This document shows positions 31,866 through 59,164 of a stretch of DNA of 64,000 nucleotides, one piece after another. Where the stretch lies: the NCBI GenBank assembly GCA_025765595.1, contig JAIVFH010000079.1, positions 96,980 through 160,979 on the forward strand, given 5' to 3'. The stretch comes from Obelidium mucronatum. Lineage: Eukaryota; Chytridiomycota; Chytridiomycetes; Chytridiales; Chytriomycetaceae. Each line of letters starts with the position of its first letter. Positions within the stretch are counted from its first letter, which is position 1. The notes below the pieces were generated by a model that saw only the letters and a list, made by a program, of their open reading frames with translations, was not told where the DNA came from and searched no databases. The translations under genes were made by a program, and so were the position numbers.

Positions 31866-33024
31866 GTGTCCCCATCGCGAGCCGGACCTTGCGAGCCGCT
31901 AACGGGCCGCTTAGCAGGCCGCTCGCGACCTGTGGGCGACCTGCGTGCGAGCCGCTAACCAGTGGAAAGCCAGCCGCGTCGCAGTTAGTTCACAGGCCGC
32001 AAGCCAGTTGACAGCCAGTGGAGAGCCAGTTGAAAGCTAGTCCTTACTTTATTTCAAAAAAGGTAAGAAACAATGCGCAGAAAAGTTTTAAAACCATAAC
32101 ATATGTATTTAAAGTAATAAACAAAATCCAAAGTAACCAACAATAAACAAAAACAAAAAAAAGGATGCGCGAAGTCGAAAATAACAAAACATTGAAGAAA
32201 CAATAAATAAAAAAAAACCCTTATCAGCGCTTTGCCTTCTTGTTTGTGCTTCCTTCCTGAAGCGGCTCCCGATAATACGCCTTCTTGACATGTTGGTTGT
32301 TTGCAAAGGCCCGAACCACTGTGTACGTCTCTGGCTTGCGCTGATGGCGGCTTTGCCCAGCCTTGTAGAAGTGCAGGTGGTTGAATGCTTGGATGAAGCT
32401 GCCAGAATTGTGGTTTTCGTCAGGAACACCAGTATGGAACGACAGCTTTTTGGTCCATTCAGCGAAATGACGTTTCGCTAATTCAAAAGTAAATGTCATT
32501 CCGCTGTATGTTGCAAAGAAGCACTTGTACTTCAAGAAGATCTATAGCAAAGTCAGAAAACGCAGATAACAATCAATAAACATGCAATCACCTTTTTCAG
32601 CTCCTCATTGTACAAATGGAGCCCAACGTACACATGTCCAGACTCGTTCTTGTCAGGGAAGTTGACCAACCCAGTCTCCTGCTTGACCATTGCCGGGATC
32701 TTGTCCTTCCGTATGTTTCCTTCAGCCAACAGCTTGCAGAAGATGATTGCATACTTCATCACATCATCGACTTGTTTCTCCGTCACTCCTCCTGAACGTC
32801 CCGCTGGTTGAAACACAATTGACGACTGCGTCGAAGTTGATTCCATCGAATCACAGCGGAGCCAGAGCTTGGAAGCATTGGAGTTGAATACAATTGCGAC
32901 GACGGTGGGGTCACAACGGCAGGGCGAGCAAACACTGGTTGCAAGACTATCAATAGAAAGGCAGTTAGTACCCCTTCCCTGCTCAAACAAATCACAACAC
33001 ACTCACTGCTTCCGGCTTTGATTG
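31866..33024 (-). mobile_element. Truncated inverted copy of the KDZ element right end
   Basis: It starts with the terminal repeat GTGTCCCCATCGCGAGCCGG and runs through the last K5 exons. It closely matches the complement of 55482-57176 but lacks the 527-bp MITE at 56584-57110, showing the uninterrupted repeat. Homology stops at about 33024. Confidence 0.9.
32224..33002 (-). pseudogene. K5 C-terminal fragment
   Basis: Two exons matching the end of K5: KQVDDVMKYAIIFCKLLAEG ... LYNEELKK, then KCFFATYSGMTFTFELAKRH to a stop. The splice sites are kept. The upstream exons are missing because the copy is truncated at 33024. Differences from the full copy are few. Confidence 0.8.
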
Positions 33025-41777: not shown

Positions 41778-42752
41778 TCACCCCATCAAACCTGCAATCG
41801 CTATACCAGTTAGCAAGTCCCCTTGCAACTCTTGAAAACCACCATTGCTGCCCTTAAAGATAGTAGTGCGGTAATAAAACCAAACCATATAGTAGTGGTA
41901 CTTAACATTTGTGTTCCCCCGAAGGAACGTGTGCTTGCTGGCGCAATTGTATTTGTATATATACAGGTAGTCTTTTGGAAAGATTACGTGTGCGCCGCCC
42001 ATGATGGATGTCAAGTCCTTGGTTGTTGAGACTGTGATCACAGCATGTGGGTATCCAGAAGGAATGACAGAGAGATCGCCAGGCCTCTTTACAAAGCAGA
42101 TCTTTGCTGTGTATGTGCAGGAAGGTCCCACCTCCAAAGCCATGGCTTGAGCAAACGACAGGGGATTAAGGGTAGGGATGATGGCTGTGGGGTCGCTGGG
42201 GACAAGCACCACCCACAGCTTGAAGAGCTGCTGATTGGTGGGTAATTGAAGGAGGACGTTGATGGCTGTTCCATAGTCCTGATGGAGGGGAGAGTGGCGG
42301 TAGTGGTTGATGGGTTGACACAACATGATTGGAGCGGAAAACGCTGCATGGTGCAGCTCCCATTCCTCCAATGGATCAAAAAAACCAGAAATAAAGCTCC
42401 TTTTGTGTGGTTGATTGTTATGGTAGCAGGCTGTGGGGAAATACTCCCCTGACGTCAGGCGATCAGCAGGAATACTGGAGGATGGCAGGAATAGAATCTT
42501 GCCAGGATTGGCAAGCAGGAGGGATTCCAATCGCTTTAGATCCAGGTTGCAGTCTGGCAGGGTGTAGATGCGGCTGCAATCCAAGAGCACTTGCTCAATT
42601 AGATCAAGAGCGGCAAGGATCTCAGCAGGAGCAGCAGGACACGCTCTAATTGCAGAGATCGGGTTAATAGAAAAGGCTGATTTTGCTGTATGTTTGCTTG
42701 AGGCAGTGGCAGCGGTTGCGGCGGCTTGGCGTTGTCTTGTTGAGCGTCGCAT
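41778..42752 (-). pseudogene. K2 copy A, JmjC-like dioxygenase, 3'-truncated
   Basis: Starts MRRSTRQRQAAATAA and keeps the dioxygenase core: SPLHQDYGTAINVLLQL, FKLWVVLVPSDP and PGDLSVIPSGYPHAVITVS. It loses the C-terminal basic tail at about residue 310, where copy A ends. There is no internal stop before that. Compared with the full K2, substitutions lie mostly outside the putative iron ligands. Confidence 0.75.
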
Positions 42753-42908
42753 TCTTCAAGTCAAAGTGGTGAGGGAGAACACAACAAACCAGAGAATACT
42801 TTATTACAGCTTTGTAGCCGTTGATATGCAAGGAATAATTTGATTCAATATTTACCTAGGTATTGTTGCGTTAACTTGATTATTTATTTATTTATCTATT
42901 AATGCAAT

Positions 42909-44336
42909 AGACAAAACGCGTAACAAACGAAAACGTGTCAAAAATTCAGCATCCACCACTGCACACCAGATGCTGAAACGCCAGAAGCACATGTCTGAGC
43001 AGGGACTCAGCGGCGCTGATGTTATAGGTTGGTGGGCCAATACTTTTATTTTTGCTGTGGTTGCTGTTAAACATTTTCAGCAACAAAACCTGCAGAGCTG
43101 CGAGTGCTGGATGACAGAACCAAGGGACAGGAGTTTGTGTACAGTCTAAACACAGACGGAGTTGAGGGCTTGTTGCAGGGAGGTGAGGGGGTTTTTGGTT
43201 TTGTTGCGGTCAAGCATTGCTAACAAGGTTGAGATTGCTGTTAGAATCAAGCTGCCGCCCTATATACTCAAGGTGGCCATGCCACACATCCGCGATCTTG
43301 CCGCAATATTTCAACGCTTGCAGCCGAAGGTTATCATAATCGGTAGGTGACGCAGCACCGGACGATCACAGCCGCTAGATGTTTTATGGCTAAGAGGCAG
43401 CTTATGACTCTCAGGGGAAGGGGCGGTGGACGTCGCTCGCGCACGAGCTTACTTCCGCAGAAGCGACAAGGGTGAAGTATCGTGCACGCGCACACTTCTC
43501 TGCATGTTCGTCCCCTTTGTGCTCGTGGACTGGAGTTGCAGACAGCATCAAGGACCCACACTACCCGGCGGATGTAGCATCTGTCAAGGTGAAAGAACAT
43601 GCCGAAAAGGTAGCAAACGGGCTGGCGGTGTTTGGAAAGGAGAACATCAAGCCAGAGCTGCTGCCCCACTTTGAGGGCCTTCAGCCGCTGGTCGCTTACC
43701 TCACTGGCATTGTGGAGTCTCTGGTACATCGGGAGGCGTTTGAGATGGTGGCCAACATTGCAAAGGTATGTGTTTGTTATAGTTTAGTGCTCACCTTCTA
43801 ATTGCAAAAACGAGACCATAGGAAGTTGCAACCACCTGTGATCCCATCTTTGGGATCTTCACGTCCTTGTTTCTTGCATGCTCAAACAGCGGGGACTTCA
43901 AGCTCCAGCTGGACAGCAAAAATTCAACATTCGGGATCAGCTTCAGTGTTGTGGTGGATGAGGAAGACGCGGAACCGCCCGTGGTATGGCCAGCACTGTA
44001 CCTACCGGATTGAAACGTGGTGATCCCAGCGGTGCATGGGGAGGCGATTGTTTCCATGTTCAAGCATGAAAAACATGGGACCAGCATGTGGCATTCAGGG
44101 GAGCGACAATTTGTGGAGGTAGCGGAGTTGGCGGCGGAGGCAGATACTAGGAAGCGGAGAATCTCGCTGATTCTGGCAGATGGAATGGGAACAGCAAGTT
44201 GGGCGGTGAAGCGCAACCAGAACAGGTTTGTGGGAAGCGCTGTGGTGGAGAAGGGGGGAGTTACCTTCAACATTAATTGCGATGCCACAGATCGCAATCG
44301 GAAGATATGGGAATCGGTTTTGCAAGCACTGCGTTG
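42909..44336 (+). pseudogene. K1 copy A, unknown, start codon lost
   Basis: Same exons as K1 of the full copy: a basic first exon (AHQMLKRQKHMSEQGLSGAD), then ELRVLDDRTKGQEFVYSLNT, IKLPPYILK, GLAVFGKENIKPELLPHFEG and the final exon with FVGSAVVEKGGVTFNINCDA. The initiating ATG of the full copy (ATGGACAAAACG) reads ATAGACAAAACG here. This copy shows the K1 structure before the RhoGEF exon was captured. Confidence 0.65.
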
Positions 44337-46227: not shown

Positions 46228-47001
46228 CTAATTGTATTTATTTCTTTCAACATAAAAGCAATGAAAAGCAAATTGGTGGTAGCCAGTATGAGAATCTTCC
46301 GGTACTGGCTGAAAATGGGGGTAAAAGTCATTGTACTGGTAATGTTGTGACCCTAGTTTGAAAGTGCATGTAAAATGTGAACCGGCATTTGTGGAAGCAT
46401 GAATTCGGCTGACAAGATCCCATACACGTTGGCCAAAATGCAATGTTGATGGAAAACTGAAGTGAGCAGACTGATCACTACTGATGCTGAAGAAAAGAAT
46501 GGTGGGAATTGTAGTAAACGTTTCCATCAAAACACCATCAGCAGCAGTGCAGCCGGCCATTCGGCCATGGCAGTGAGTTTCATTTGTTTTCCAAGGAAGT
46601 GTTGTTCTTAAGCCCTCAGGACTATTCAGGTGGTTAAAAATAACTTGGATATTTTCAGATCCAGCAGCTGCTTGAATGCTATCATTAAGAGGCTAGAAGA
46701 TAGTTTAACACAGGCAAATTTAATTTTCAGAATATGAGGAAACCACACTCACAAAGACACGGCAACTCTGATTCCTCTCAGACAAATGAACAGAATTGCC
46801 ACACCAACGAAGTTGCGATCGAGTTGACTGAAATAAGCGACGAAACAATGGGTCTTGGGAGCTTGTGTCATGAAATAAAAGAGTAGAAGGTGCATCTATC
46901 ATACGCTCAAGGACATCCAAAGGACTGCCAAACCCATTATCAAGATACATTTGCTGCACATCAATAACCCAATCTCTCAAAGCTTTCCTTCCGTCCTCCA
47001 A
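46228..47001 (-). pseudogene. USP-like protein fragment
   Basis: Two exon-like frames: EDGRKALRDWVIDVQQMYLD ... RCWGN-like text at 46720-47001, then 46228-46560 with TIPTILFFSISSD, FPSTLHFG, VWDLVSRIHAS, GSHFTCTFKLG and QYND. The last part resembles the C-terminal half of ubiquitin-specific proteases (LP.vL, fP..l, YdL.g...H...HYta, W..ynD) with the His in GSHF. It lies next to the KDZ relic and may be a cargo gene of that element or of the Helitron. Similarity is judged by eye only. Confidence 0.4.
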
Positions 47002-47135
47002 AATCCTCCCAATTGTTGAAACATTTGACGTCTGTCTTGCTTTAAAATGGGATAAAATATGAAACCAAATGCTTGAATTTTGGGGCTGATAATTTTCAAA
47101 CTCAGGACATGAACAGTAGACAATATAGATTACAA

Positions 47136-47188
47136 ACCAGCAATATATGGAACTATGGGAACAAATTTGGGATGTTCAGCAAAGAAAG
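47136..47188 (-). pseudogene. Helitron helicase continuation beyond the KDZ insertion
   Basis: Across the KDZ insertion the minus-strand frame from 57185 (SYSGPSFF) continues as AEHPKFVPIVPYIAG, the expected text after the GP.F segment in PIF1-like Helitron helicases. The later motifs (RxQ.PL, the IHKSQG helicase motif) are not found downstream. Confidence 0.6.
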
Positions 47189-47238
47189 CAATTGGGGATG
47201 CGGGCCGGACCTCGCGAGTCGCGATACCGGTCGCGTTG

Positions 47239-47333
47239 CGAGCCGCTCACGGGCCGCTTGCGACCTGCTGACGAGCCGCTAGCGGGCCGCTTGCGACCTG
47301 CTGACGAGCCGCTAGCGGGCCGCTTGCGACCTG
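47239..47333. repeat. Subterminal 33-bp tandem repeats of the KDZ element
   Basis: Three units of cgagccgctagcgggccgct... with tgcgacctgctga, at 47239, 47272 and 47305 (the last partial). The right end has related words (gttagcggctcgc, ggtcgcgagcggcc). Likely transposase binding sites. Confidence 0.8.
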
Positions 47334-47545
47334 TGCCACGGCCTGTTCGCAGGCCGCTCTGTACCTTTTTATGTGGGGCGCGAGCCGCAAGCCACTTGTT
47401 CACAGGCCGCTAACCCCCAACTGTCACTAAAACTCAAGAATAAGCCACAAAAAATGTATCAAATAAGGCTGTTTATTAAGGCTGTTTATTATCAATAAAT
47501 AAATAAATAAATAAATAAGTAAATAAGTAAATAAGTACACATTGC

Positions 47546-48952
47546 TCAACCCAGGGCTTGCAAAACCGATTCCCGTATCTTCCGATTGCGATCTGTGGCA
47601 TCGCGATTAATGTTGAAGGTAACTCCCCGCTTCTCCACCACAGCGCTTCCCACAAACCTGTCCTGGTTGTGCTTCACAGCCCAACTCGCTGTTCCCATTC
47701 CATCTGCCAGAATCAGCGAGATTCTCCGCTTTCTAGTATCTACCTCCGCCACCAACTCCGCTGCCTCCGCAAATCGTCTCTCCCCTGAATGCCACATCCT
47801 GGTCCCATGTTTTTCATGCTTGAACATGGAAACAATCGCCTCCCCATGAACCGCTGGGATCACCACATTTCGATCTGGTAGGTACAGCGCTGGCCATACC
47901 ACGGGCGGTTCCGCGTCTTCCTCATCCACCACAACACTGAAGTTGATCCCGAAAGTCGAATTCTTGCTGTCCAGGTGGAACTTGAAGTCCCCGTTGTTTG
48001 AGCACGCAAGAAACGAGGACGTGAAGATCCCAAAGATGGGATCACATGTGGTTGCAACTTCCTATTGGTCTCGTTTTCGCAATTAGAAGGTAAGCACTAA
48101 ACTATAACAAACACATACCTTTGTAATGTTGGCCACCATCTCGAATGCCTCCCGATGTACCAGAGACTCCACAACGCCAGTGAGGTAAGCGACCAGCGGC
48201 TGAAGGCCCTCAAAGTGGGGCAGCAGCTCTGGCTTGATGTTCTCCTTTCCAAACACCGCCAGCCCGTTTGCTACTTTTTCGGCATGTTCTTTTACCTTGA
48301 CAGACGCTACATCCGCTGGGTAGTGCGGGTCCTTGATGCCGTCTGCAACTCCAGTCCAGGAGCACAGGTTGATGACTCGCATGTTGCCGCGCGTCTTGAC
48401 CTTTGGCTGCGAGCGTCGAAAGATAGCTGCAAGATCGCGGATGTGCAGCATGGCGTCCTTGAGTATATAGGGCGGCAGTTTGATTCTAATAGCACTCCCA
48501 AGTTGTTAGCAACGCTTGGACTGCAACAACACCAAAAAAACCCTCACCTCCCTGCAACAAGCTCTTCAACTCCGTCTGTGTTTAGACCATACACAAACTC
48601 CTGTCCCTTGGTTCTGTCATAGGCGGACGATCTGTGGTGGTCAAACACTGTCCCCAAGGACGTGCTGGAGTCCGTCTCAAAGGAGGAGGAAAAGAGGCAG
48701 AACGCAATCTACGACATTATCAAAACAGAAAAGAACTATGTCGAGGAACTCAGGATTATTCAATCAGTGAGAATGTTTTTGTAAAATGTTTAACACCAAC
48801 CACAGCAAAAAAAAGAAGTTGGCCCACCAACCTATAATATCAGCGCGGCTCAATCCCTGCTCAGACATGTGCTTTTGGCGTTTCAGCATCTGGTGTGCAG
48901 CGGTGGATGCTGACTTTTTGACGAGTTTTCGTTTGTTACGCGTTTTGTCCAT
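47546..48952 (-). CDS. K1, unknown protein of the KDZ element
   Basis: Exon 1 (48832-48952) starts MDKTRNKRKLVKKSAS. Exon 2 ends at about 48548 and contains DRTKGQEFVYGLNTDGVEEL. Exon 3 (about 48115-48490) starts IKLPPYILKDAMLHIRDLAA and contains ENIKPELLPHFEGLQPLVAYL. Exon 4 (47546 to about 48062) has a beta-rich region ending RNRKIRESVLQALG. About 370 residues in all. A foreign exon (48623-48767) sits antisense between exons 1 and 2 and replaces the acceptor and first codons of exon 2 seen in copy A, so splicing there must use another site. No family recognised. It is divergent from K2. Confidence 0.6.
48621..48776 (+). other. Captured RhoGEF exon (DH domain start), antisense in K1
   Basis: Plus-strand reading between an acceptor (TCATAG) and a donor (GTGAGA at 48768) gives LWWSNTVPKDVLESVSKEEE, then KRQNAIYDIIKTEKNYVEEL and RIIQ. 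This is the hallmark start of a Dbl-homology domain (RQ..IY.l..TE..YV..L), closest in feel to fungal Rho1 GEFs of the Rom2/Rgf type. Splice sites are included, so genomic DNA, not mRNA, was captured. Copy A has about 30 unrelated bases at this place. Confidence 0.78.
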
Positions 48953-49111
48953 TGCATTAATAGATAAATAAATAAATAAATAATCAAGTTAACTCAACAA
49001 TACTAAGGTAATTTATTGAATCAAAGTATTCCTTGCATATCAACGGCTACAAAGCTGTAATAAAGTATTCTCTGCGTTGTTGTGTTCTCCCTCATTACTT
49101 TGACTTGAAGA

Positions 49112-50266
49112 ATGCGACGCTCAACAAGACAACGCCAAGCCGCCGCCGCTGCCACAGCCTCAACCAAACATACAACAGCATCAACCTCTTCTATCAACCC
49201 GATCACAGCAATTAGAGCGTGTCCTGCTGCTCCTGCTGAGATCCTTGCCGCTCTGGATCAAATTGAGCAAGTCCTGTTGGATCGCAGCCGCATCTATATC
49301 CTGTCGGACTGCAACCTGGATCTTACGCGCTTGGAATGCCTCCTTCTTGCCAATCCTGGCATGATTCTATTCCTGCCATCCTCCAATATTCCTGCAGATC
49401 GCTTGACGTCAGGGGAGTATTATCCCACAGCCTGCTACCACGACGGTCAACCACACAAAAGGAGCTTTGTCTCTGGGTTTTTTGATCCATTGGAGCAATG
49501 GGAGCTGCAGCATGCAGCGTTTTCCGCTCCAATCATGTTGTGTCAACCCATCAACCAGTACCGCCACTCCCCCCTCCATCAGGACTATGGAACAGCCATC
49601 AACGTCCTCCTTCAATTACCCACCAATCAGCAGCTATTCAAGCTGTGGGTGGTGCTTGTCCCCAGCGACCCTACAGCCATCATCCCTACCCTTAATCCCC
49701 TGTCTTTCGCTCAAGCCATGGCTTTGGAGGTGGGCCCTTCCTGCACATACACAGCAAGGATCTGCTTTGTAAAGAGGCCTGGCGATCTCTCCGTCATTCC
49801 TTCTGGCTACCCACACGCTGTGATCACAGTCTCAACAACCAGGGACGCGACATCCATCATGGGCGGCGCTCACGTCATCTTTCCAAAGGACTACCTGTAT
49901 GTGTACAAGTACAATTGTGCCAGCAAGCACACTTACCTTTGGGGGAACACCAACATCAAGTACCACTACTACATGGTTTGGTTTTATTACCGCTCTACTA
50001 TCTTTAAGGGCAACAATGGTGGTTGTCAAGAGTTAGAAGGGGACTTGCTAACTGTAGAAGAGTATAGGGATTGCAGGTTTGATGGGGTGAGGGATGTGGT
50101 GGCTGAGATGGTGTCAAGTTGGACAGTGCGGGGTGATGCCAAAAGGGAAGCTGCAGCCAAAGCAGCGAAGCAAGGTGTTTCAAAAAGGCTGAAAGCAAAA
50201 CAAGCAAATAGGGAGAAGATGGAAAGGGTGAGACATGCAAAAGTGGGAGGATCAAAGAGAAAGTGA
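49112..50266 (+). CDS. K2, JmjC-like 2-oxoglutarate/Fe(II) dioxygenase
   Basis: 384 residues, single exon. After an Ala/Thr-rich basic N-terminus comes a double-stranded beta-helix pattern. HQD (His156, Asp158) is followed by GTAINVLLQL, FKLWVVLVPSDP (Lys177 as possible 2OG contact) and GDLSVIPSGYPHAVITVS (His235), then MGGAHVIF. The HxD...H spacing of 79 residues and the 'P.G..HAVIT...GG' ending fit JmjC-type enzymes. The basic tail (KAAKQGVSKRLKAKQANREK) suggests DNA or nuclear targeting. Substrate (histone, protein or DNA base) is unknown. Copy A keeps all these residues. It lies just upstream of the transposase. Confidence 0.68.
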   Translation: MRRSTRQRQAAAAATASTKHTTASTSSINPITAIRACPAAPAEILAALDQIEQVLLDRSRIYILSDCNLDLTRLECLLLANPGMILFLPSSNIPADRLTSGEYYPTACYHDGQPHKRSFVSGFFDPLEQWELQHAAFSAPIMLCQPINQYRHSPLHQDYGTAINVLLQLPTNQQLFKLWVVLVPSDPTAIIPTLNPLSFAQAMALEVGPSCTYTARICFVKRPGDLSVIPSGYPHAVITVSTTRDATSIMGGAHVIFPKDYLYVYKYNCASKHTYLWGNTNIKYHYYMVWFYYRSTIFKGNNGGCQELEGDLLTVEEYRDCRFDGVRDVVAEMVSSWTVRGDAKREAAAKAAKQGVSKRLKAKQANREKMERVRHAKVGGSKRK

Positions 50267-50413
50267 TATCATAACTATAGAAGCACATGCAATAAAGGAA
50301 AACCCTATGACACAATTAAAGAATTCTTTATTGCCAATATACTGGACCTATAGCGTCGCGTTGATTGCAATTGTTTGGTTTGCCCCAACAGGCTGAACGC
50401 AAACTTATCAAAA

Positions 50414-52549
50414 ATGAATTGGAAAGAAGGGAGGCATTCTGGAATGTTCAGAACAACAAAAGTAAAAACAACCATCATGTCCTTTATAGATGAAGCAAGA
50501 GCTGTAGTTGTGCTGGCCAACGAGTTGCAGAAAGTCAAGCCGTTCCTGCATAGGTTCAAGACTGCAGTCAAACTATATGACAACAACAACCGCATGAGGG
50601 CGATCTGTGATCACATCTCCAAGCAGTTTTCCTTGACCAATGAAACAGTATTTACCTTGGCAGACAAAGTATTCCAGTGTCCAGGCATGGACGCGGTCAA
50701 TCACTGGAAACCTGTCCAGCCATCTGTCCTTGTGGCTCCATTCTCGCAATGCCACAGGTGCACCAAAAACTTGACTTTCAGCAGCACACAAGTAGTGGTG
50801 TTGGGGATGGAAGGCCCATACCACGCGTCGCTGTTCAAGGGCAACTGCACTAAATGCCGCATGTGGTACAATGTGGATTCTGTCGCGTACATGAGCGAAG
50901 ACAAACAGAAGCAGCTGATAGAGATGTATCCGCTTGAAACTATCATGTCAGTTGGCTTCCTCAAGATCAATGAGCAGTACTACGTCACCATACCTTTTGC
51001 GGATCTCTGGCTAAAGCACCTGCCGTCTGGCCTTCTGTTAGTCTTTCCTTGCATGGTAAATACTAAATTGATCTTTTACTCATACTTCACACATAGGGTG
51101 AAGCTGTATCATGAGCAGCGCACATATTCACTGGCCTTCCCTACCATCAAAGTGCCTGATCCAGACACCGCAGTGATCTTCAAACGTGGATTTTACGTGT
51201 ATCACATGCTACTACTACAGCAGTACATCTCCAAGATCGCTGCCAATGATGACTATGAACATATGCGGTACACTCACTTCAGACCTTCCTGGGCCCCCAA
51301 AACAACACATTTGTGGAACAACTCCCTATTTCTGGGTCCATACTTACCAAAAACAGGTGATTCTATTCATGACATCAGACCCGCGATGCGGGAATACGTC
51401 ACGTTCATGACTGATTACTTCAGCAAGAAGTGGCAGCACCGCTGCAACGGCTGCCACCAGTTTTACAACGGAAAGGAAATCTCTGGCAGTGTAATGGATG
51501 GTAAAGTCATGGGGCATCTATTGTGCTCTGTGCCTGGGTGTGTGTTGCCTATTCTTGGTGTGAACACATTGTTCTGCTCATCGCATGCCCAGCTGAGGAA
51601 TGAGTGCATCATCTCTGGCTGCAAGCGAAAAAAGACAGACACTGTTTTGCATACTTGCGGACTCAGCGCTCACAACGCGACTGTCCAGGAAATCATTGGG
51701 AAACAGTGGAACAAGGACTTTAAAGCGACGCGAAAGTCCAAGAAAACGCGAACATCTACAGTGCATATTGATACACAAGAAAAAGAGTTAGTAGCGGATC
51801 AGCGGTTCAAGTAGCAGCGGTTCCTGCCTGGAATATTTATGGCTGTGTGGAGCTGCGGCATGATCATTGGAATATCTAAGATGTACTCTTTTGAGTCTTC
51901 TACCTTTATTTCTCGCTTCTTATGCCACTGTTTTGCGCGAATGGGCGAAGTACCGACCTTTGTTTTCTACGATAGAGCCTGCCGCTTGCTCCAATCCCTA
52001 CGCGCCCGACACGTAGCAGGAAAATTCACAATATATGAAAGGTGCACTTTACTTATTTATTATTACGCGTTCTGTTCATTATATAGTGTTCTCTTCTTAT
52101 ACTTACCACCAATCTTTGTTGGAATCAGGTTCTTGTACAAGACTGTTACGTTTGTGGTTGACAGGTTCCACTTTCGGATGCACAGGGACGACTTCTGTAC
52201 AGAGCATTGCGATCCAGCAAAATTCAAGGAATTGACGTCAGGAGGGCCTGCAAATGGAAAGGGGAGGTTTAACACGTCCGCGGCAGAACACTGTGCCAAG
52301 TGGTTTGATCAAACCGCTCACCTGATTCGCTTCCACGAGCCCGTCCAAGCGGATTTCATTATGTGGTGTCTCGCAGACTTGAGAAACGCGGACATCCAGA
52401 GCGGAATTTCAAAGAAGAAAAGAGTTATTAGAAACGAAAGCGAAGACAAAATGGAGGCGGAGGAGGAACAACAAGAAAAGGATGACGAGGAGGATGATGA
52501 AGACACCAACGAAGATGATGGTGAAGGAGAGGAAGAAGAGGATGAATAA
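50414..52549 (+). CDS. K3, KDZ transposase with CxC5 and CxC6 clusters
   Basis: The start is uncertain; ATG 50414 (MNWKEGRHSG) or 50478. A CxC5-like cluster (CHRCTKN ... GNCTKCRMWY) is followed by HMLLLQQYI, then a CxC6 cluster (HRCNGCHQF, VMDGKVMGHLLCSVPGC, FCSSH, CIISGC). Next come WSCGMIIG, the first Asp in FYDRACRL, the second in VVDRFHFRMH and the Glu in NTSAAEHCAKWF. The tail is strongly acidic. An in-frame intron of 91 bases lies at about 52040-52130 (GTGCAC...AATCAG). A TAG at 51812 interrupts the frame before RFLPGIF and may be a nonsense mutation. It moves the element by DDE chemistry. Confidence 0.85.
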
Positions 52550-52619
52550 ATAACAAAACTCACCTTTACAAACTTTGTTTTTGCGCCGCTTGCGTCGACA
52601 GTGAGAAACACAGTACAGA

Positions 52620-52802
52620 GAGAATGAGAAAGCCCATTCGTCATCTGGATAGAAGTGTTTGGGGAGCGGGAGAACGAGAAAGCCCATTCATCACCACTGA
52701 ATCAAACAACAAACTGGCGCCGCAGGACAGAGAGAATGAGAAAGCCCATTCATCATCTGAGTATCTGCGAAGTAGGAGAATGAGAAAGCCCATTCATCAC
52801 TA
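52620..52802 (+). repeat. Four spaced copies of GAGAATGAGAAAGCCCATTC
   Basis: The 20-mer recurs with one or two changes at about 52620, 52669, 52733 and 52782, at 49-64 bp spacing, each followed by a tCATCA-like end. It lies between K3 and K4, so it could be a promoter or binding array. Confidence 0.8.
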
Positions 52803-52869
52803 CCAACTGCGCATTTTTGCTATTTTTTTTGTTAAGTCTCTTTTGGCGGGACAAAATTAAACAGCAATA

Positions 52870-53628
52870 ATGTCAAAGTATTTTTCAAACACTGCGCCTA
52901 TACAACAATCCAACAACCCCCCTATCGCTGCATCCATCTTTGATGGCCTCCCTGCTGAGACAGTGAGCGTGATTCTTTGATTGGGGTATGTGTGTTTCTT
53001 CTCTTTTTATTTTTTAAATATTATGTCCCCATTAACACGATTGCGAGCCAATCCTCAGGAAATCGTGGATCCAACCAAGGCACCGTGGCCGAGCCGGTGT
53101 GCCAAACCAGGATCGCGTCGACAAGCACCGAAATCGAAGCAGGGGGGGAAGGAGAGGCAGTTGGAAACTAAAGCAACAGAAGAAACCAAGGCAATCACGG
53201 TCTCGCAGGTGGTCCTGTCCAACGGAGTTAAGTCGAAAAAACCAAAGGCAACAATTCGGCTTGATCGAGCGACAGCGTCGAGGAGATCTACAGACGCGGA
53301 GCACATCAATGCTGGACCAAGCAACATCAAGCCAAAAGCGCATATACGGCTCAATCTGTCGAAAGGATTGTACAAATCAAAAGAACAGGTGAAGATGGAA
53401 CCTTTTGGTGCTGGATGGAATCATGGGGATGACAATGATGGTGGATCTCCTGGACCAACACCAAAAGTGGAGGACGACGACGATGAAGTACTGTCATATT
53501 CAAGTTCGGATGTGGGATCGGATTGGGGACCCGATCGGATGATTTTGGTTGATGGGGAACTCATGGAAGGGCTCCCAATTGTAGATGGGGAATTGTACAC
53601 GCCTGGGCGATACAGGGCAGACTTCTGA
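52870..53628 (+). CDS. K4, small charged protein of the KDZ element
   Basis: A first exon (MSKYFSNTAPIQQSNNPP... AET, to 52962) joins in frame to EIVDPTKAPWPS after an intron ending CCTCAG near 53058. About 220 residues: a basic Lys/Arg/Ser-rich half with two related segments (KPKATIRLDRA and KPKAHIRLNLS), then an acidic Gly/Asp half (KVEDDDDEVLSYSSSD) and VDGELMEGLPIVDGELY near the end. The doubled segments hint at a short internal repeat. No family recognised. Confidence 0.55.
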
Positions 53629-53755
53629 GCGTATATGTGGGTTCTTTATTCCTTCCCTACTCTCAATTTGTCTTTTCACAAATAAAGAAACTTTGGGTTG
53701 TTTTTAAAAAATAAATTAACTTTGGTGCATTTTTAAAAAATAAAGAAGATTTTCA

Positions 53756-56289
53756 ATGTCCGAACATCCATTAGCCCCAGGAAACCCCAGCACGGTCGCA
53801 GGTCTGCTGGATCGTCTCGCCAACAGTCGTGACTGCAGACACTTCATCAATGTTCCATTTTCGCTCCCCTCAGTTGCAGACGGGACGTGGATTAGCGGCT
53901 ACCAATGGATAACCAAGCCGCGCGCGGATGGCTCCGTTAACCCCAAGTCACTCAAGTACCTTTGGAAGACAATCCACGGGCACGTGTTTTACCCAAACAT
54001 CTCGAAATTGGCGCCCAACGCATGCACAGATGCAATGCGAGAGCTGGTGCCACATATAATCATGTAATGTTTGTTCATAGTTCCGCACTATCATACGCAC
54101 TATATCTAACATGTGTTTTTTAGTATGTTGAATACTAACTTTGCGCCAGTGGTGTACAACTACCACATGAAAGAAAACGATGAACAGCTAATGACTGTTG
54201 TACACCTGGACTTCCCGATTGTCTTAACAACACTGAAAAAAACGGTTGAATCTTTTCAGTTTCTTACAGACGATGACCTCGCAGTTCTGGCTGGACAAGT
54301 GGGGTTTGGTGTCCAGTTTCCTGACGAAACGGAGTTAGACCTCGACGTAGCAAGAAAACTAATGCCGCGATTCATCTACGGTAATGTTTTCTTTGCCTTC
54401 AAGTGTATATGTACTGCTAAAGCTCTGTTTTTTGTTGTTATAGATCGCAAGAATGTGAACAACATGTTCAAGGTGCGTTTTACCACACAGCTGTACCCAG
54501 AACCCAGCAAAACAAACGTGGATGGATCAAAAAACGCGGAGCGCTTGCACAGGGTCCCACTGCGGGAGTCGCGGATTGACCTGCAGGAAGCGATCCGGAA
54601 CGAAGTTCGCAGAGAGCAACGCCAACGCGAAGATGGGAGTGAGAGTGGCTTTATTCTCCACGTTTCCGATGACGAAGAAAAGGAAAGTGACGACGATGTT
54701 GTAATTGTTGGTCCAACGATTGCAGGTATGTTTCTTTATTTTTTATGTCTAAGACTAAGCGCCAAGCATCACCAACACCAGCCAAACAGCCCGTGCGCAA
54801 AACCTACAGCAAGATGCCCAGCTCTGCTAAACGTGACGAGACGGCTATGGAAAGGCGCAGAAGACGTAAGTGTCATTAAAATGTGGTTTCTTCAATTTTA
54901 ATCTATAAAAATCACACAACAGGGTCTGTAAGTCCACCAGACGAACGGGGAATCCAATCTGAAAGTGACGCAGACAATGGCGCCGATGATGACGATGTCA
55001 ATGCATCCTCAAGCGAGTCTGATAGACAGGACGCTCGCAATGATGACGAAGACTTGGATGAAGACGAAGATGACGACAAAGGATTACGATGATGGTGAGA
55101 GATATGTTTTTATTGCTTGGCTAACAACATTCAGCAGATGAAGCCGACGAAAGTCCAGCACCGGAACCGCCGAAAGCCAAAATCGGAGTCACTCTTATTG
55201 CGGACAAGTCGACAAAGCTGCTTGTTGAAATTCCGTATGTGATGGATCGGAAAGACCGCTATGTTTTAGGTAAGTGGATTCTTTCTTCCGCTGTTGTTTC
55301 CTCAAATCCTCTGAGTATTAACTCTGTTTTAGGTCCAAGTGACATCATCAAGTTCCTCTCAAGTCACGCAGCATTCCTGGCAAGGGGTATCCGCTGCGAC
55401 TACGTGGAGCTTGTTGACGAAGATGGCTTTGGACGATCGTCGTTTGTAATTCAATACACAGCTGTCTTTGGACAGATTGACATCAAAGCCGGAAGCAGTG
55501 AGTGTGTTGTGATTTGTTTGAGCAGGGAAGGGTACTAACTGCCTTTCTATTGATAGTCTCGCAACCAGTGTTTGCTCGCCCTGCCGTTGTGACCCCACTG
55601 TCGTCGCAATTGTATTCAACTCCAATGCTTCCAAGCTCTGGCTCCGGCAGCTCCCGCCGTGATTCGATGGAATCAACTTCGACGCAGTCGTCAATTGTGT
55701 TTCGCCCAGCGGGACGTTCGGGAGGAGTGAAGGAGAAGCAAGTCGATGATGTGATGAAGTATGCGATCATCTACTGCAAGCTGTTGGCTGAAGGGAACAT
55801 ACGAAAGGACAAGATCCCGGCAATGGTCAAGCAGGAGACTGGGTTGGTCAACTTTCCTGACAAGAAGGAGTCTGGACATGCGTACGTTGGGCTCCATTTG
55901 TACAATGAGGAGCTGAAAAAGGTGATTGCATGTTTATTGATTGTTATCTGCATTTTCTGACTTTGCTATAGATCTTCTTGAAGTACAAGTGCTTCTTTGC
56001 GACATACAGTGGAATGACGTTTACTTTTGAATTAGCGAAACGTCATTTCGCTGAATGGACCAAAAAGCTGTCGTTCCATACTGGTGTTCCTGACGAAAAC
56101 CACAATTCTGGCAGCTTCATCCAAGCATTCAACCATCTGCACTTCTACAAGGCAGGGCAAAGCCGCCATCAGCGCAAGCCAGAGACGTATGTGGTGCTTC
56201 GGGCCTTTGCAAACAACCAACACGTCAAGAAGGCGTATTGGCGGGAGCCGCTTCAGGAAGGAAGCGCAAGCAAGAAGGCAAAGCGCTGA
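53756..56289 (+). CDS. K5, large multi-exon unknown protein of the KDZ element
   Basis: At least seven exons joined by GT-AG introns (for example 54066-54122, about 54381-54444, 55269-55332, 55499-55556, 55921-55970). The start is MSEHPLAPGNPSTVAGLL. The middle has acidic runs (DDEEKESDDDVVIVG, DEDLDEDEDDD). The C-terminal half contains KQVDDVMKYAIIYCKLLAEG, LYNEELKK, KCFFATYSGMTFTFELAKRH and a basic end SASKKAKR. Roughly 700 residues. No catalytic motif recognised. The last two exons also survive in the copy at 31866-33024. The exon count in the acidic region (54700-55150) is uncertain. Confidence 0.6.
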
Positions 56290-56583
56290 TTGGGGGTTTT
56301 TTTATTTATTGTTTCTTCAATATTTTGTTTATTTCAACTTTGCGCATCCTTTTTTGTTTTTGTTTATTGTTGGTACTTTGGATTTTGTTTATTACTTTAA
56401 ATACATATATTATGGTTTTAAAACTTTTCTACTCATTGTTCTTACCTTTTTCAAAATAAAGTAACGACTAGCTTTCAACTGGCTCTCCACTGGCTGTCAA
56501 CTGGCTTGCGGCCTGTGAACTAGCTGCGACGCGGCTGGCTTTCCACTGGTTAGCGGCTCGCACGAAGGTCGCCCACAGGTCGC

Positions 56584-57110
56584 GCACGTACTATAGCGAG
56601 CGGCACTCCCGATTCGGACCCCGATTCGGACTCCTAGTCGGAAATCGATTCGGAGTCCGACTAGGGCCCTAATAGGGACCGACTAGGAGCAATCCCGAAT
56701 CGGGCGCGACTCGGAATGGCGGTTAGGCCAATTTGCGCTCCTATTCTCCCCCTAGCGTACTCCTAACCTGTTTCCAGTAGGAGATTTCTGCTTTTTCCCT
56801 TTATTTTGAGGGTTTTTTTTCTCCTAGTCGGACTTCCGAAGAGGACATAGCATCAAATGAGAAAAATTACCTAAACTACTGAAAAACTTTTTAAAATAAA
56901 GCTATTAGAACTCCTTTTAAGAGGTGGCGAATGCTATAAGGACAGGTCCAATTGGCGCATTTGCGATTAGGAGCGCCACTAGGAGCCCTAATAGCGCCCT
57001 ATTGGGCTCCTAATTGGTCCAGCTCCTAGTCAGGTCCGATTCGGACTCCTAGTCGGACTCCTAGTCGGGTCCGATTACCGAATCGCGCGTGCCGCTCGGA
57101 CCCCGGGCTG
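56584..57110. mobile_element. 527-bp hAT-like MITE in the KDZ right terminus
   Basis: It is flanked by the 8-mer AGGTCGCG (56576-56583, 57111-57118), present once in the uninterrupted end at 31866. Its ends share GAGCGGCAC..CGATTCGG in inverted orientation and start CA. The inside is full of CTAGTCGGA/TCCGAC and GGAGC words. The 8-bp TSD suggests mobilisation by a hAT transposase. Confidence 0.85.
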
Positions 57111-57184
57111 AGGTCGCGAGCGGCCTGCTAAGCGGCCCGTTAGCGGCTCGCGAGGTCCGGCTCGCTATGGGGACACAAAGAAAG

Positions 57185-58508
57185 ACGGTCCAGAATAGGA
57201 TGGAAAATCAACCACAATGAAATCAGGTTGAGTAGTTGGAGGCAATTCATGAGGATTGACAAAAACAAAGTCAATAACAACCCCAAGGGCCCCATTGTTC
57301 AGCCCAAATTTCTTCAAGAGGTTGGCAAGGCATTTCACTCTTGAACCAACAGATAATAGCAAGCAGTTTTCCAGATTCTGGAAAGTCTTCGCATTTTCCC
57401 TTTTGGCAATTGCGTTGGAGTTGATTGCATCAATTCTGAGGATGGGGGAATTCAAAGCAATCAAACATCTTGAGTTTTCAGCATTGACCTTAGCGTTAAC
57501 CGCATATAGTCTCTTGAGACCAGGGTGAAGAACAAACGACTCAAGGTATTCCACAGTTTGATTTCCAATAAACCGGGTTTGGAGAAATGTGTAGTCAGCA
57601 AGTGTAGATTTTCCGTCACGTAACCGAGGGAGTAGATCAATATACAGGTCTTGCTCAAGGGTTCCGTCAACCTGTTGGCGTTTTCCTTGAGTGAGAAACC
57701 AGACATTTCGTGAAAGTTCTCTGTAGACAGCAAAGCCAAGGACCCCCCAACTGCTTGATGGAGTTGATAAGTTAAAGATTGGAGTACCTGCAGTTGGTGG
57801 GATTTGGCCAAAGTCACCAACAAGCAAAACATCAATTCCGCCAAATGGCAAATCTGGCTTTCCAGTAGCTTGACGCAGACGAGAATCAATCATTCCTAGT
57901 TCGCTTTGATCAACCTGAGAGCATTCATCACAGACAATGAACTTGATGTCCTTTAACAAATTTTGGAGTTTGGTCAAGGTTGGGCCTGGCTTCAATTTGG
58001 CAAACTTTTTGGAGTTGATGGGGATATGCAGAGCACTGTTGAATGTACTCCCCCCAACAAGAAACGCTTGCAGAGCCCCTTTGGCAATAACCAGAACTTG
58101 GTTGCGAGGAAGGAGTCCTGCAATCGCTGAGATTGTGTGAGACTTTCCCGACCCAGCAGAACCAAGTATTAATCCAAGGGCTTGATCAATTTCTCCATCA
58201 AAACTTGACTTGAAGTAGTCAAAAACTTGTCTTTGCGTTTTATTCAATGTTTCAGGCTTGACGTCATTGATGGTAGATTGGCCCAGGTCAGCAAGATTAT
58301 CAGCAATAAGGTTTTGGAGAAAGATGGTAGCAGCAATTTTGGACTCTGATGTATAAGCTAAGGATGTTTGAAGATGCCAGTTCTTGTTGGCAGCAATGAT
58401 CATTTCTGAATCAACAGTGTTTTCAGTTTCTGTGGAGTATTTTGCTGTCTTTGGGTCGATTCCAAACATGGCCATCTCAGCCCGTGAAGCATTCTGAGCC
58501 TGTAACAA
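57185..58508 (-). pseudogene. Helitron PIF1-like helicase domain, cut by the KDZ element
   Basis: One frame with the start of a superfamily 1 helicase. Walker A is GSAGSGKSH, motif II CDECSQVD, motif III LLVGDFGQIPP, then FLTQGKRQQ and NNGALGVVIDFVF. It ends at SYSGPSFF, where the KDZ target duplication lies. The following text is at 47136-47188 and the last motifs are missing. It joins the Rep part upstream through an intron near 58500-58550. In Helitrons this domain unwinds DNA during rolling-circle movement. Confidence 0.85.
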
Positions 58509-58522
58509 AAAAAAAGAATAGA

Positions 58523-59164
58523 TTAAAACATAAAAACTTCAGTCAAGTCCAAGTCAACGTTTTGGCGAGACATTTCTCCTACAACAACTATAGCACTCCC
58601 AAGCTCAAGATCTTTTAGAAATGTTTGTCGAATATCATCAGAGCACATTTCGAGAAAAAAATTGTAGCGGGCAGGAGCAGTTTCAAGATTCATGAGCAAC
58701 GGAATATCTTCCGCTTTCCACGGTGAGTATCGAATCAAAAAGAACTTGCAAAAAACAGCATGATTCTTGCTGCTGGGGCTGGATCCATTGGGAGATGGTC
58801 TGAAAAGCAAAACTTCATTTGTTTTGTGGGTTCGCTTGATTAAAAATTCTTTTTTTGTGTCAAATGCTTTGGCAAAAGCAGCAAAGTTGAGAGGCGCCAA
58901 CAAATTCAAGGCGGTGATTTTCAGTTTGTGCCGATTTGCGTAAAAAGCAATAAGGTCCTTTGATTGGAATATTTCCCCATCAGTGGAGACTTTTAAAAGA
59001 CATTGATTTGGATCTGAGTTGATATTGATTGCAACAAGGTCGGTGTTGTGGTGGTTTCCGGAATCCAAAAGTCTTGACGCTTGGCCTTCCCCTATAGCAT
59101 CAGAGCTCGACCATTTAATAAACATTCCTCGGAATTTGGACTGTGGGTTATTGCTGTCATCCAT
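58523..59164 (-). pseudogene. Helitron Rep-helicase linker region
   Basis: An open frame beginning MDDSNNPQSKFRGMFIKW, with SSSDAIGEGQASRLLDSGNH; this matches the section between Rep and helicase in Helitron proteins. An intron near 59168-59227 (GTGAGT...AATAG) joins it to the Rep exon in frame (LFM-ATIANM). No inactivating change in this part. Confidence 0.7.

Follow-up and report, generated by a model that had tools for sequence, protein, structure and literature searches.

The window analysed here, a stretch of 64,000 nucleotides from the chytrid Obelidium mucronatum, contains a KDZ transposon of 9988 bp at 47189..57176, which is bounded by an 8-bp target site duplication and inverted ends. 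The duplication, AAAGAAAG, is found at 47181..47188 on the left and again at 57177..57184 on the right, and these boundaries, with the GC-rich ends, lie exactly where a previous sequence-only reading had put them. The 5' terminal inverted repeat (47189..47222) begins with CAATTGGGGA, as do all 11 of the 5' ends compared (window copy included), whereas the 3' repeat (57143..57176) finishes with TATGGGGACAC; the inverted arms at 47200-47222 and 57143-57165 are 91% complementary. GC-rich subterminal repeats, with a 33-nt unit made from 11-nt pieces (repeat family D2), occupy 47239..47337. An 8-bp target duplication together with inverted ends is the arrangement by which the KDZ superfamily (Zisupton/Dileera type) is recognised.

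Five genes had been proposed inside these ends, and this content is borne out, with K1 on the minus strand, K2 to K5 on the plus strand, and introns in K1, K3 and K5 according to splice models made in this analysis. K1 (47546..48952) has four exons and encodes about 368 aa in the splice model from copy C45 (363 aa in P0013, the nr model of the gene); part of its exon 2 region has been replaced in the window copy. K2 (49112..50266) is a single open frame of 384 aa and a JMJD6-like JmjC candidate. The transposase gene, K3, lies at 50477..52549, followed by K4 (53023..53628), a charged low-complexity protein of 201 aa that falls in no known family, and by the multi-exon K5 (53756..56289; 692 aa in a splice model from copy C52), which has a C-terminal basic cluster. 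Neither K4 nor K5 had a significant match in Pfam; the strongest stray match linked part of K5 with DUF7355 (E 0.007; 16.8 bits, with the cut-off at 27). By eye, basic clusters can be seen at the start of K1 and at the end of K2 and K5, and these may serve nuclear entry. Separately, an open basic stretch starting MSKTKRQ is present at 54745-54865, inside a presumed K5 intron, and it is possible that this is an alternative first exon of K5.

The assignment of K3 to the KDZ transposases, also made from the sequence alone, is upheld by its cysteine clusters. Its motifs FYDRACRL, VDRFHF and NTSAAEH, read by eye, are what we take to be KDZ-like. K3 matched Pfam CxC6 above the cut-off (E 2.4e-13) and CxC5 just below it (E 1.2e-5; 25.9 bits against 26.9), both of which are associated with KDZ transposases in their Pfam descriptions. 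The Pfam KDZ model itself (PF18758) has 16 matches in the genome, none of them at K3 places, and the downstream half of K3 matched no Pfam family at E below 0.1; this model would overlook a catalytic part that has diverged.

The window copy is not intact, carrying a stop in K3, a patch in K1, a deletion in K5 and a nested insert. The stop is an in-frame TAG at 51812-51814. The patch, on the plus strand at 48618..48784, replaces about 33 bp of K1 with a piece derived from a RhoGEF gene, is 98% identical to a sequence on contig C157 (L042), where an adjacent frame matches Pfam RhoGEF, and is absent from copies C45, C52, C233, C332 and C59; the replacement has the look of a repair that used foreign DNA as its template. 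K5 is missing about 77 bp at 55081. The insert is a 526-bp element with CA..TG ends (56585..57110), flanked by its own 8-bp duplication, AGGTCGCG, at 56577-56584 and 57111-57118, and a query made from its right half found at least 42 matches (40 scored of 192 candidates).

Copies, linkage and selection

The O. mucronatum assembly (Chytridiomycota; 48.3 Mb in 694 contigs) holds four further duplication-bounded copies, C45, C52, C233 and C332, of 9310-9373 bp. Counting the window copy, both ends could be matched in six copies, five of which (the window copy and these four) have perfect 8-bp duplications that differ from one another, while the sixth, C541, has no matching 8-bp duplication. Since the four further copies show the same ends and their own perfect, differing duplications, it is very unlikely that the ends and the target duplication arose by chance. 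Over long pieces the bounded copies agree at 93-99.8%. Two of them sit inside relatives of the element, C233 in K3 and C332 in K5, and for this reason the window copy shows what their sites were like before insertion (from 52329 on for C233 and from about 54002 downwards for C332); in each unfilled site the 8 bp are present once, with one changed base. The element is thus confirmed as a real mobile unit, a DNA transposon of the KDZ superfamily that is present in multiple copies in this chytrid.

When the flanks of the window copy are joined with one AAAGAAAG, a single frame continues over the join, which, reading it by eye, we take to encode a Helitron helicase. Its two parts, at 46720-47175 and 57185-58538, look by eye like a Helitron-type helicase split by the element. 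A search of the assembly with the joined flanks for a second copy of this Helitron-like site matched the two flanks alone.

Many copies are incomplete or lie at contig ends. Few are intact. In the ten copies inspected, the 384-aa frame of K2 is uninterrupted in seven (the exceptions being C45, C59 and C541), and a K3 frame longer than 690 aa is present in two, C52 and C541, as counted on unspliced frames. In C233 K3 is damaged: part of it is absent, with a K5 piece in that position.

To what extent do the genes travel together? All five duplication-bounded copies hold K1, K2, K4 and K5 in the same order between the same ends. For the linkage count the stronger matches were taken, namely the best 41 of 112 for K2, 50 of 150 for K1, 36 of 41 for K3 and 29 of 86 for K5. 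Among these K2 matches, whose surroundings are known for fetched loci only, K1 lies upstream in the correct relative orientation in 33, K3 is present in 19, K1 and K3 together in 17, and K1, K3 and K5 in seven. Seen from the transposase, K2 lies upstream in 19 of the best 36 of 41 K3 matches, and the other 17 have none of the K2 matches listed within 5 kb upstream.

The sequence-only reading had pointed to two truncated relatives, and truncated relatives are present in the window. A stretch at 41781-44331 contains a truncated sister of K2 (41808..42752), which has a 325-aa open frame, and a truncated K1-like piece (43822..44331), and a truncated K5-like piece lies at 32227..32541. No homologues were found outside Obelidium, all matches of K2 (12 of 12), K1 (16 of 16) and K5 (3 of 3) being to this genus, in a search that requires shared five-residue words and that therefore does not establish their absence elsewhere.

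That reading had also asked whether other KDZ copies in the genome lack K1, K2, K4 and K5, and here the answer is divided: the five bounded copies hold them, but the loci of a second KDZ family do not. This second family, present on contigs C28 and C22 (L039, L040), has a K3 relative that is 29-60% alike in matched pieces, and no match to K1, K2, K4 or K5 was obtained at E 0.01 in 8.5 kb at each locus, a stretch that covers about 3 kb either side of K3; the ends of the family were not found, and a distant K5 could therefore escape. As the cargo is present in the bounded copies and not at these two loci, it appears to belong to the present family rather than to KDZ elements of this genome in general. 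In another respect the second family resembles the nested 526-bp insert, the repeats of which are similar by eye to its inner repeats, and because of this likeness the insert may be a non-autonomous relative of the second family.

The purifying selection that acts on K1, K2, K3 and parts of K5 between diverged copies is seen in dN/dS values computed copy by copy against the window copy, comparisons that are not independent of one another. For K2 the ratio is 0.23-0.27 against four diverged copies (C128, C242, C18 and the second C72 copy), which differ by 40-46 amino-acid and 46-52 silent changes, and 0.52-0.67 in closely related copies with few changes. The last exon of K1 gives 0-0.51 (12 copies) and its third exon 0.06-0.42 (14 matches), the four most diverged matches of the latter having values of 0.07-0.11 (p 2.7e-7 to 2.9e-6 against equal rates). 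The first exon of K3 ranges from 0 to 0.40 in the eight matches, of nine, for which the ratio is defined, including 0.08-0.23 in C120, C128, C18 and C242, and the next K3 exon gives 0.15-0.31 in C52, C18, C128 and C72. Within K5, diverged copies show 0.28-0.30 for exon 2 and 0.15-0.16 for the exon at 55595-55930; exon 1, at 0.47-0.56, is not significant. The single diverged copy of K4 gives 0.49 and carries a stop.

One may also consider that the five genes do not form a single unit, a host gene or a different element having become enclosed between the ends in an ancestral copy and been carried passively since. Foreign DNA is indeed present in the copies, as the RhoGEF patch and the nested element show, and almost half of the stronger K3 matches have no nearby upstream K2. 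However, the constant order and ends of the bounded copies and the low dN/dS of K1, K2 and K3 speak against such passive carriage, which we regard as highly improbable.

Sequence affinities of K2

K2 had been read as a JmjC-type dioxygenase, and this stands in part: its residues, their order and the comparison with a host protein agree with it, but neither Pfam nor PDB sequences gave a significant match and the AlphaFold models were unusable. The host protein, L032, is JMJD6-like and matches Pfam JmjC (E 3.4e-19). The K2 residues H156-x-D158, N164, K177 and H235 are arranged as in L032, giving the HxD/E...H pair and the 2-oxoglutarate lysine in the canonical order of JmjC proteins; their roles in binding iron and 2-oxoglutarate are predicted after those in JMJD6.

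In a Smith-Waterman comparison K2 and L032 scored 58, a value reached by none of 1000 shuffles (mean 30.3, sd 4.6). With looser gaps both motifs fall in one alignment scoring 82, against a mean of 44.7, sd of 8.5 and maximum of 81 in 2000 shuffles, and the order along this single stretch is H-x-D, GT, N, LL, K-x-W, P, then RPG, P, G, H, VI. Taken by itself, the HxD half stands out less, with a score of 16 that 18 of 2000 shuffles reach (mean -5.2, sd 7.6). At either gap setting the truncated sister and K2 rank first and second against L032 among the 413 window ORFs of at least 60 aa. A ten-position pattern matched 23 of 749 ORFs of at least 100 aa, namely 22 K2 copies and L032, and none of 50,000 shuffles; having been written with K2 and L032 both in view, it shows specificity, not discovery. 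Of the eight Pfam JmjC matches in the genome (the others being L033, L035 and L036), five were compared with K2, and the four other than L032 (L031, L034, L037 and L038) scored like shuffles; L034 and L037 share one frame, in which the HxD half is present and the distal histidine absent.

The predicted catalytic residues are strongly kept among the copies. H156, D158, N164 and K177 are unchanged in 15 of 15 aligned K2 pieces, at an overall identity of 92%, and H235 in 15 of 16, the exception being one old fragment; P0004, an nr gene model of K2, has Y in place of H156.

Searches of Pfam, PHROGs, NCBIfam and PDB sequences yielded no significant match for K2. The stray matches, none of them to an oxygenase, were to DUF982 (E 0.68), phrog_1978 (E 0.15) and O-succinylbenzoate synthase (E 0.15); a 114-aa core of K2 matched two cupin families weakly (E 0.16 each) and no others, and two other pieces of K2 matched nothing in the library search. 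The alternative named by the sequence-only reading, that K2 would align with a non-dioxygenase family, likewise found no significant match. AlphaFold produced no usable model of either the whole protein (mean pLDDT 33.9) or the core (31.7), from alignments that contained close relatives only, several of them with wrong gene models. Since K2 matches neither Pfam JmjC nor Cupin_8, we file it as JmjC-like and not as a member of the family.

These observations could also be accounted for by a cupin-fold protein with a JmjC look, acting as a structural or a DNA- or protein-binding partner of the transposase and lacking oxygenase activity. Binding factors are common among transposon accessory proteins, and K2, with cupin matches that are no more than weak, falls in no curated family. 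Nonetheless, the conservation of the predicted metal and 2-oxoglutarate residues in the aligned pieces and the purifying selection on K2 speak against such a partner, and we consider it fairly unlikely. Judging from its sequence, the most likely reading of K2 is a JMJD6-like 2OG/Fe(II) oxygenase with a JmjC fold: that it adopts the JmjC fold is very probable, and that it is an active oxygenase is predicted with somewhat less assurance.

Relation to other transposons and possible role

Kojima (2025; PMC12730594) reports in its main text TET/JBP genes in many fungal transposons, including the KDZ types Dileera, Kyakuja and Zisupton, and states an 8-bp duplication for Zisupton and Dileera; that main text contains neither the word "JmjC" nor the word "chytrid". 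The present element is like the TET-carrying KDZ transposons of that paper, as far as they are described in it, in having a KDZ-type transposase and an oxygenase-like gene of the 2OG/Fe(II) sort inside its ends, and an 8-bp duplication. It differs in that the candidate oxygenase is JmjC/JMJD6-like and not TET/JBP, in that the host is a chytrid, and in the three further genes K1, K4 and K5. If K2 acts on silencing marks, the element would work as those transposons do; going by K2, however, it would not be a TET-carrying transposon. With Zisupton it shares the inverted ends and the 8-bp duplication, as cited in PMC12730594. The HarbingerS and MuDR transposons with SET methyltransferases treated in the same paper are similar in that a DNA transposon carries a gene for a chromatin-modifying enzyme, but there the enzyme is a writer, whereas K2 is a putative eraser, and the transposase is of another superfamily. 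As for L032, the likeness to K2 extends to HxD, GT, N, K.W, P, PG, P and H in the same order, with five predicted catalytic positions aligned, although overall identity is low and K2, unlike L032, has no significant Pfam match.

A limited literature search revealed no paper linking JmjC with fungal KDZ transposons, and none on transposition in O. mucronatum; given its limits, we do not claim that JmjC-carrying transposons are unreported. The original Zisupton report is not known to describe a JmjC-like gene.

Taken together, we think it likely that this is a KDZ transposon with a stable four-gene cargo, in which K2 is a JmjC-like oxygenase with a counter-silencing role. K3 would excise the element at its inverted ends and insert it with duplication of 8 bp, of which the ends and the duplication are observed. 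JmjC-type oxygenases can alter chromatin marks, and K2 may help the element to escape silencing; its most likely role, by analogy with what is thought of TET/JBP in other fungal transposons, would be to oxidise a mark on chromatin, RNA or protein, leaving the element expressed or accessible. We infer that K2 fills the place of TET/JBP. K1, K4 and K5, for which no family was found, probably act in DNA binding, in transposition or as additional factors against silencing.

That mobile DNA can bring its own eraser of silencing marks is already known from the fungal transposons that carry TET/JBP genes, as set out in the main text of PMC12730594. Should K2 be an active JmjC enzyme, a second oxygenase family would have come to occupy the same slot in another fungal phylum, Chytridiomycota, which raises the question of which mark a transposon must remove in a chytrid. 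K1 and K5, moreover, are selected proteins of no known family in an element with closely alike bounded copies.

K1 as a second dioxygenase candidate

The last exon of K1 contains H-x-D-x-x-N, a further H 56 residues on, and R-x-S. The order HxDxxN...H...RxS is seen in many 2OG oxygenases, and HxDxxN also occurs in TET enzymes. One may therefore ask whether it is K1 that provides the element with a TET/JBP-like enzyme, K2 being a second oxygenase or something else. Among the 124 window ORFs of at least 100 aa the pattern is found in K1 alone, all of its residues are retained in L029, a K1 relative at 25-28%, and in aligned K1 pieces D is unchanged in 18 of 18 and the distal H in 17 of 17. On the other hand, the same pattern appears in 64 of 20,000 shuffles of K1; the first H is changed in two of 18 pieces, N in one of 18 and R in one of 16; Q stands in place of the first H in the truncated K1 copy of the window; and in L030, a relative of about 50% identity, the H is replaced by Y and the R by P. 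K1, like K2, had no significant match in Pfam, PHROGs, NCBIfam or PDB sequences, and the PF20515 profile matched nothing in the genome, nor anything in the search controls. We find this assignment of the TET/JBP role to K1 doubtful, and retain K1 as a weak second dioxygenase candidate, a lead only.

A slightly more doubtful extension would be a KDZ transposon with two unrelated 2OG/Fe(II) oxygenases, the JmjC/JMJD6-like K2 and a TET/JBP-like K1. If this were true, the element would attack marks on DNA along with those on protein or RNA, and so escape silencing in the chytrid.

The distant K1 relative L029 (1537-2034) is matched on contigs C15, C441 and C81, with an alpha-kinase-like frame nearby on C15, and is possibly the cargo of another repeat.
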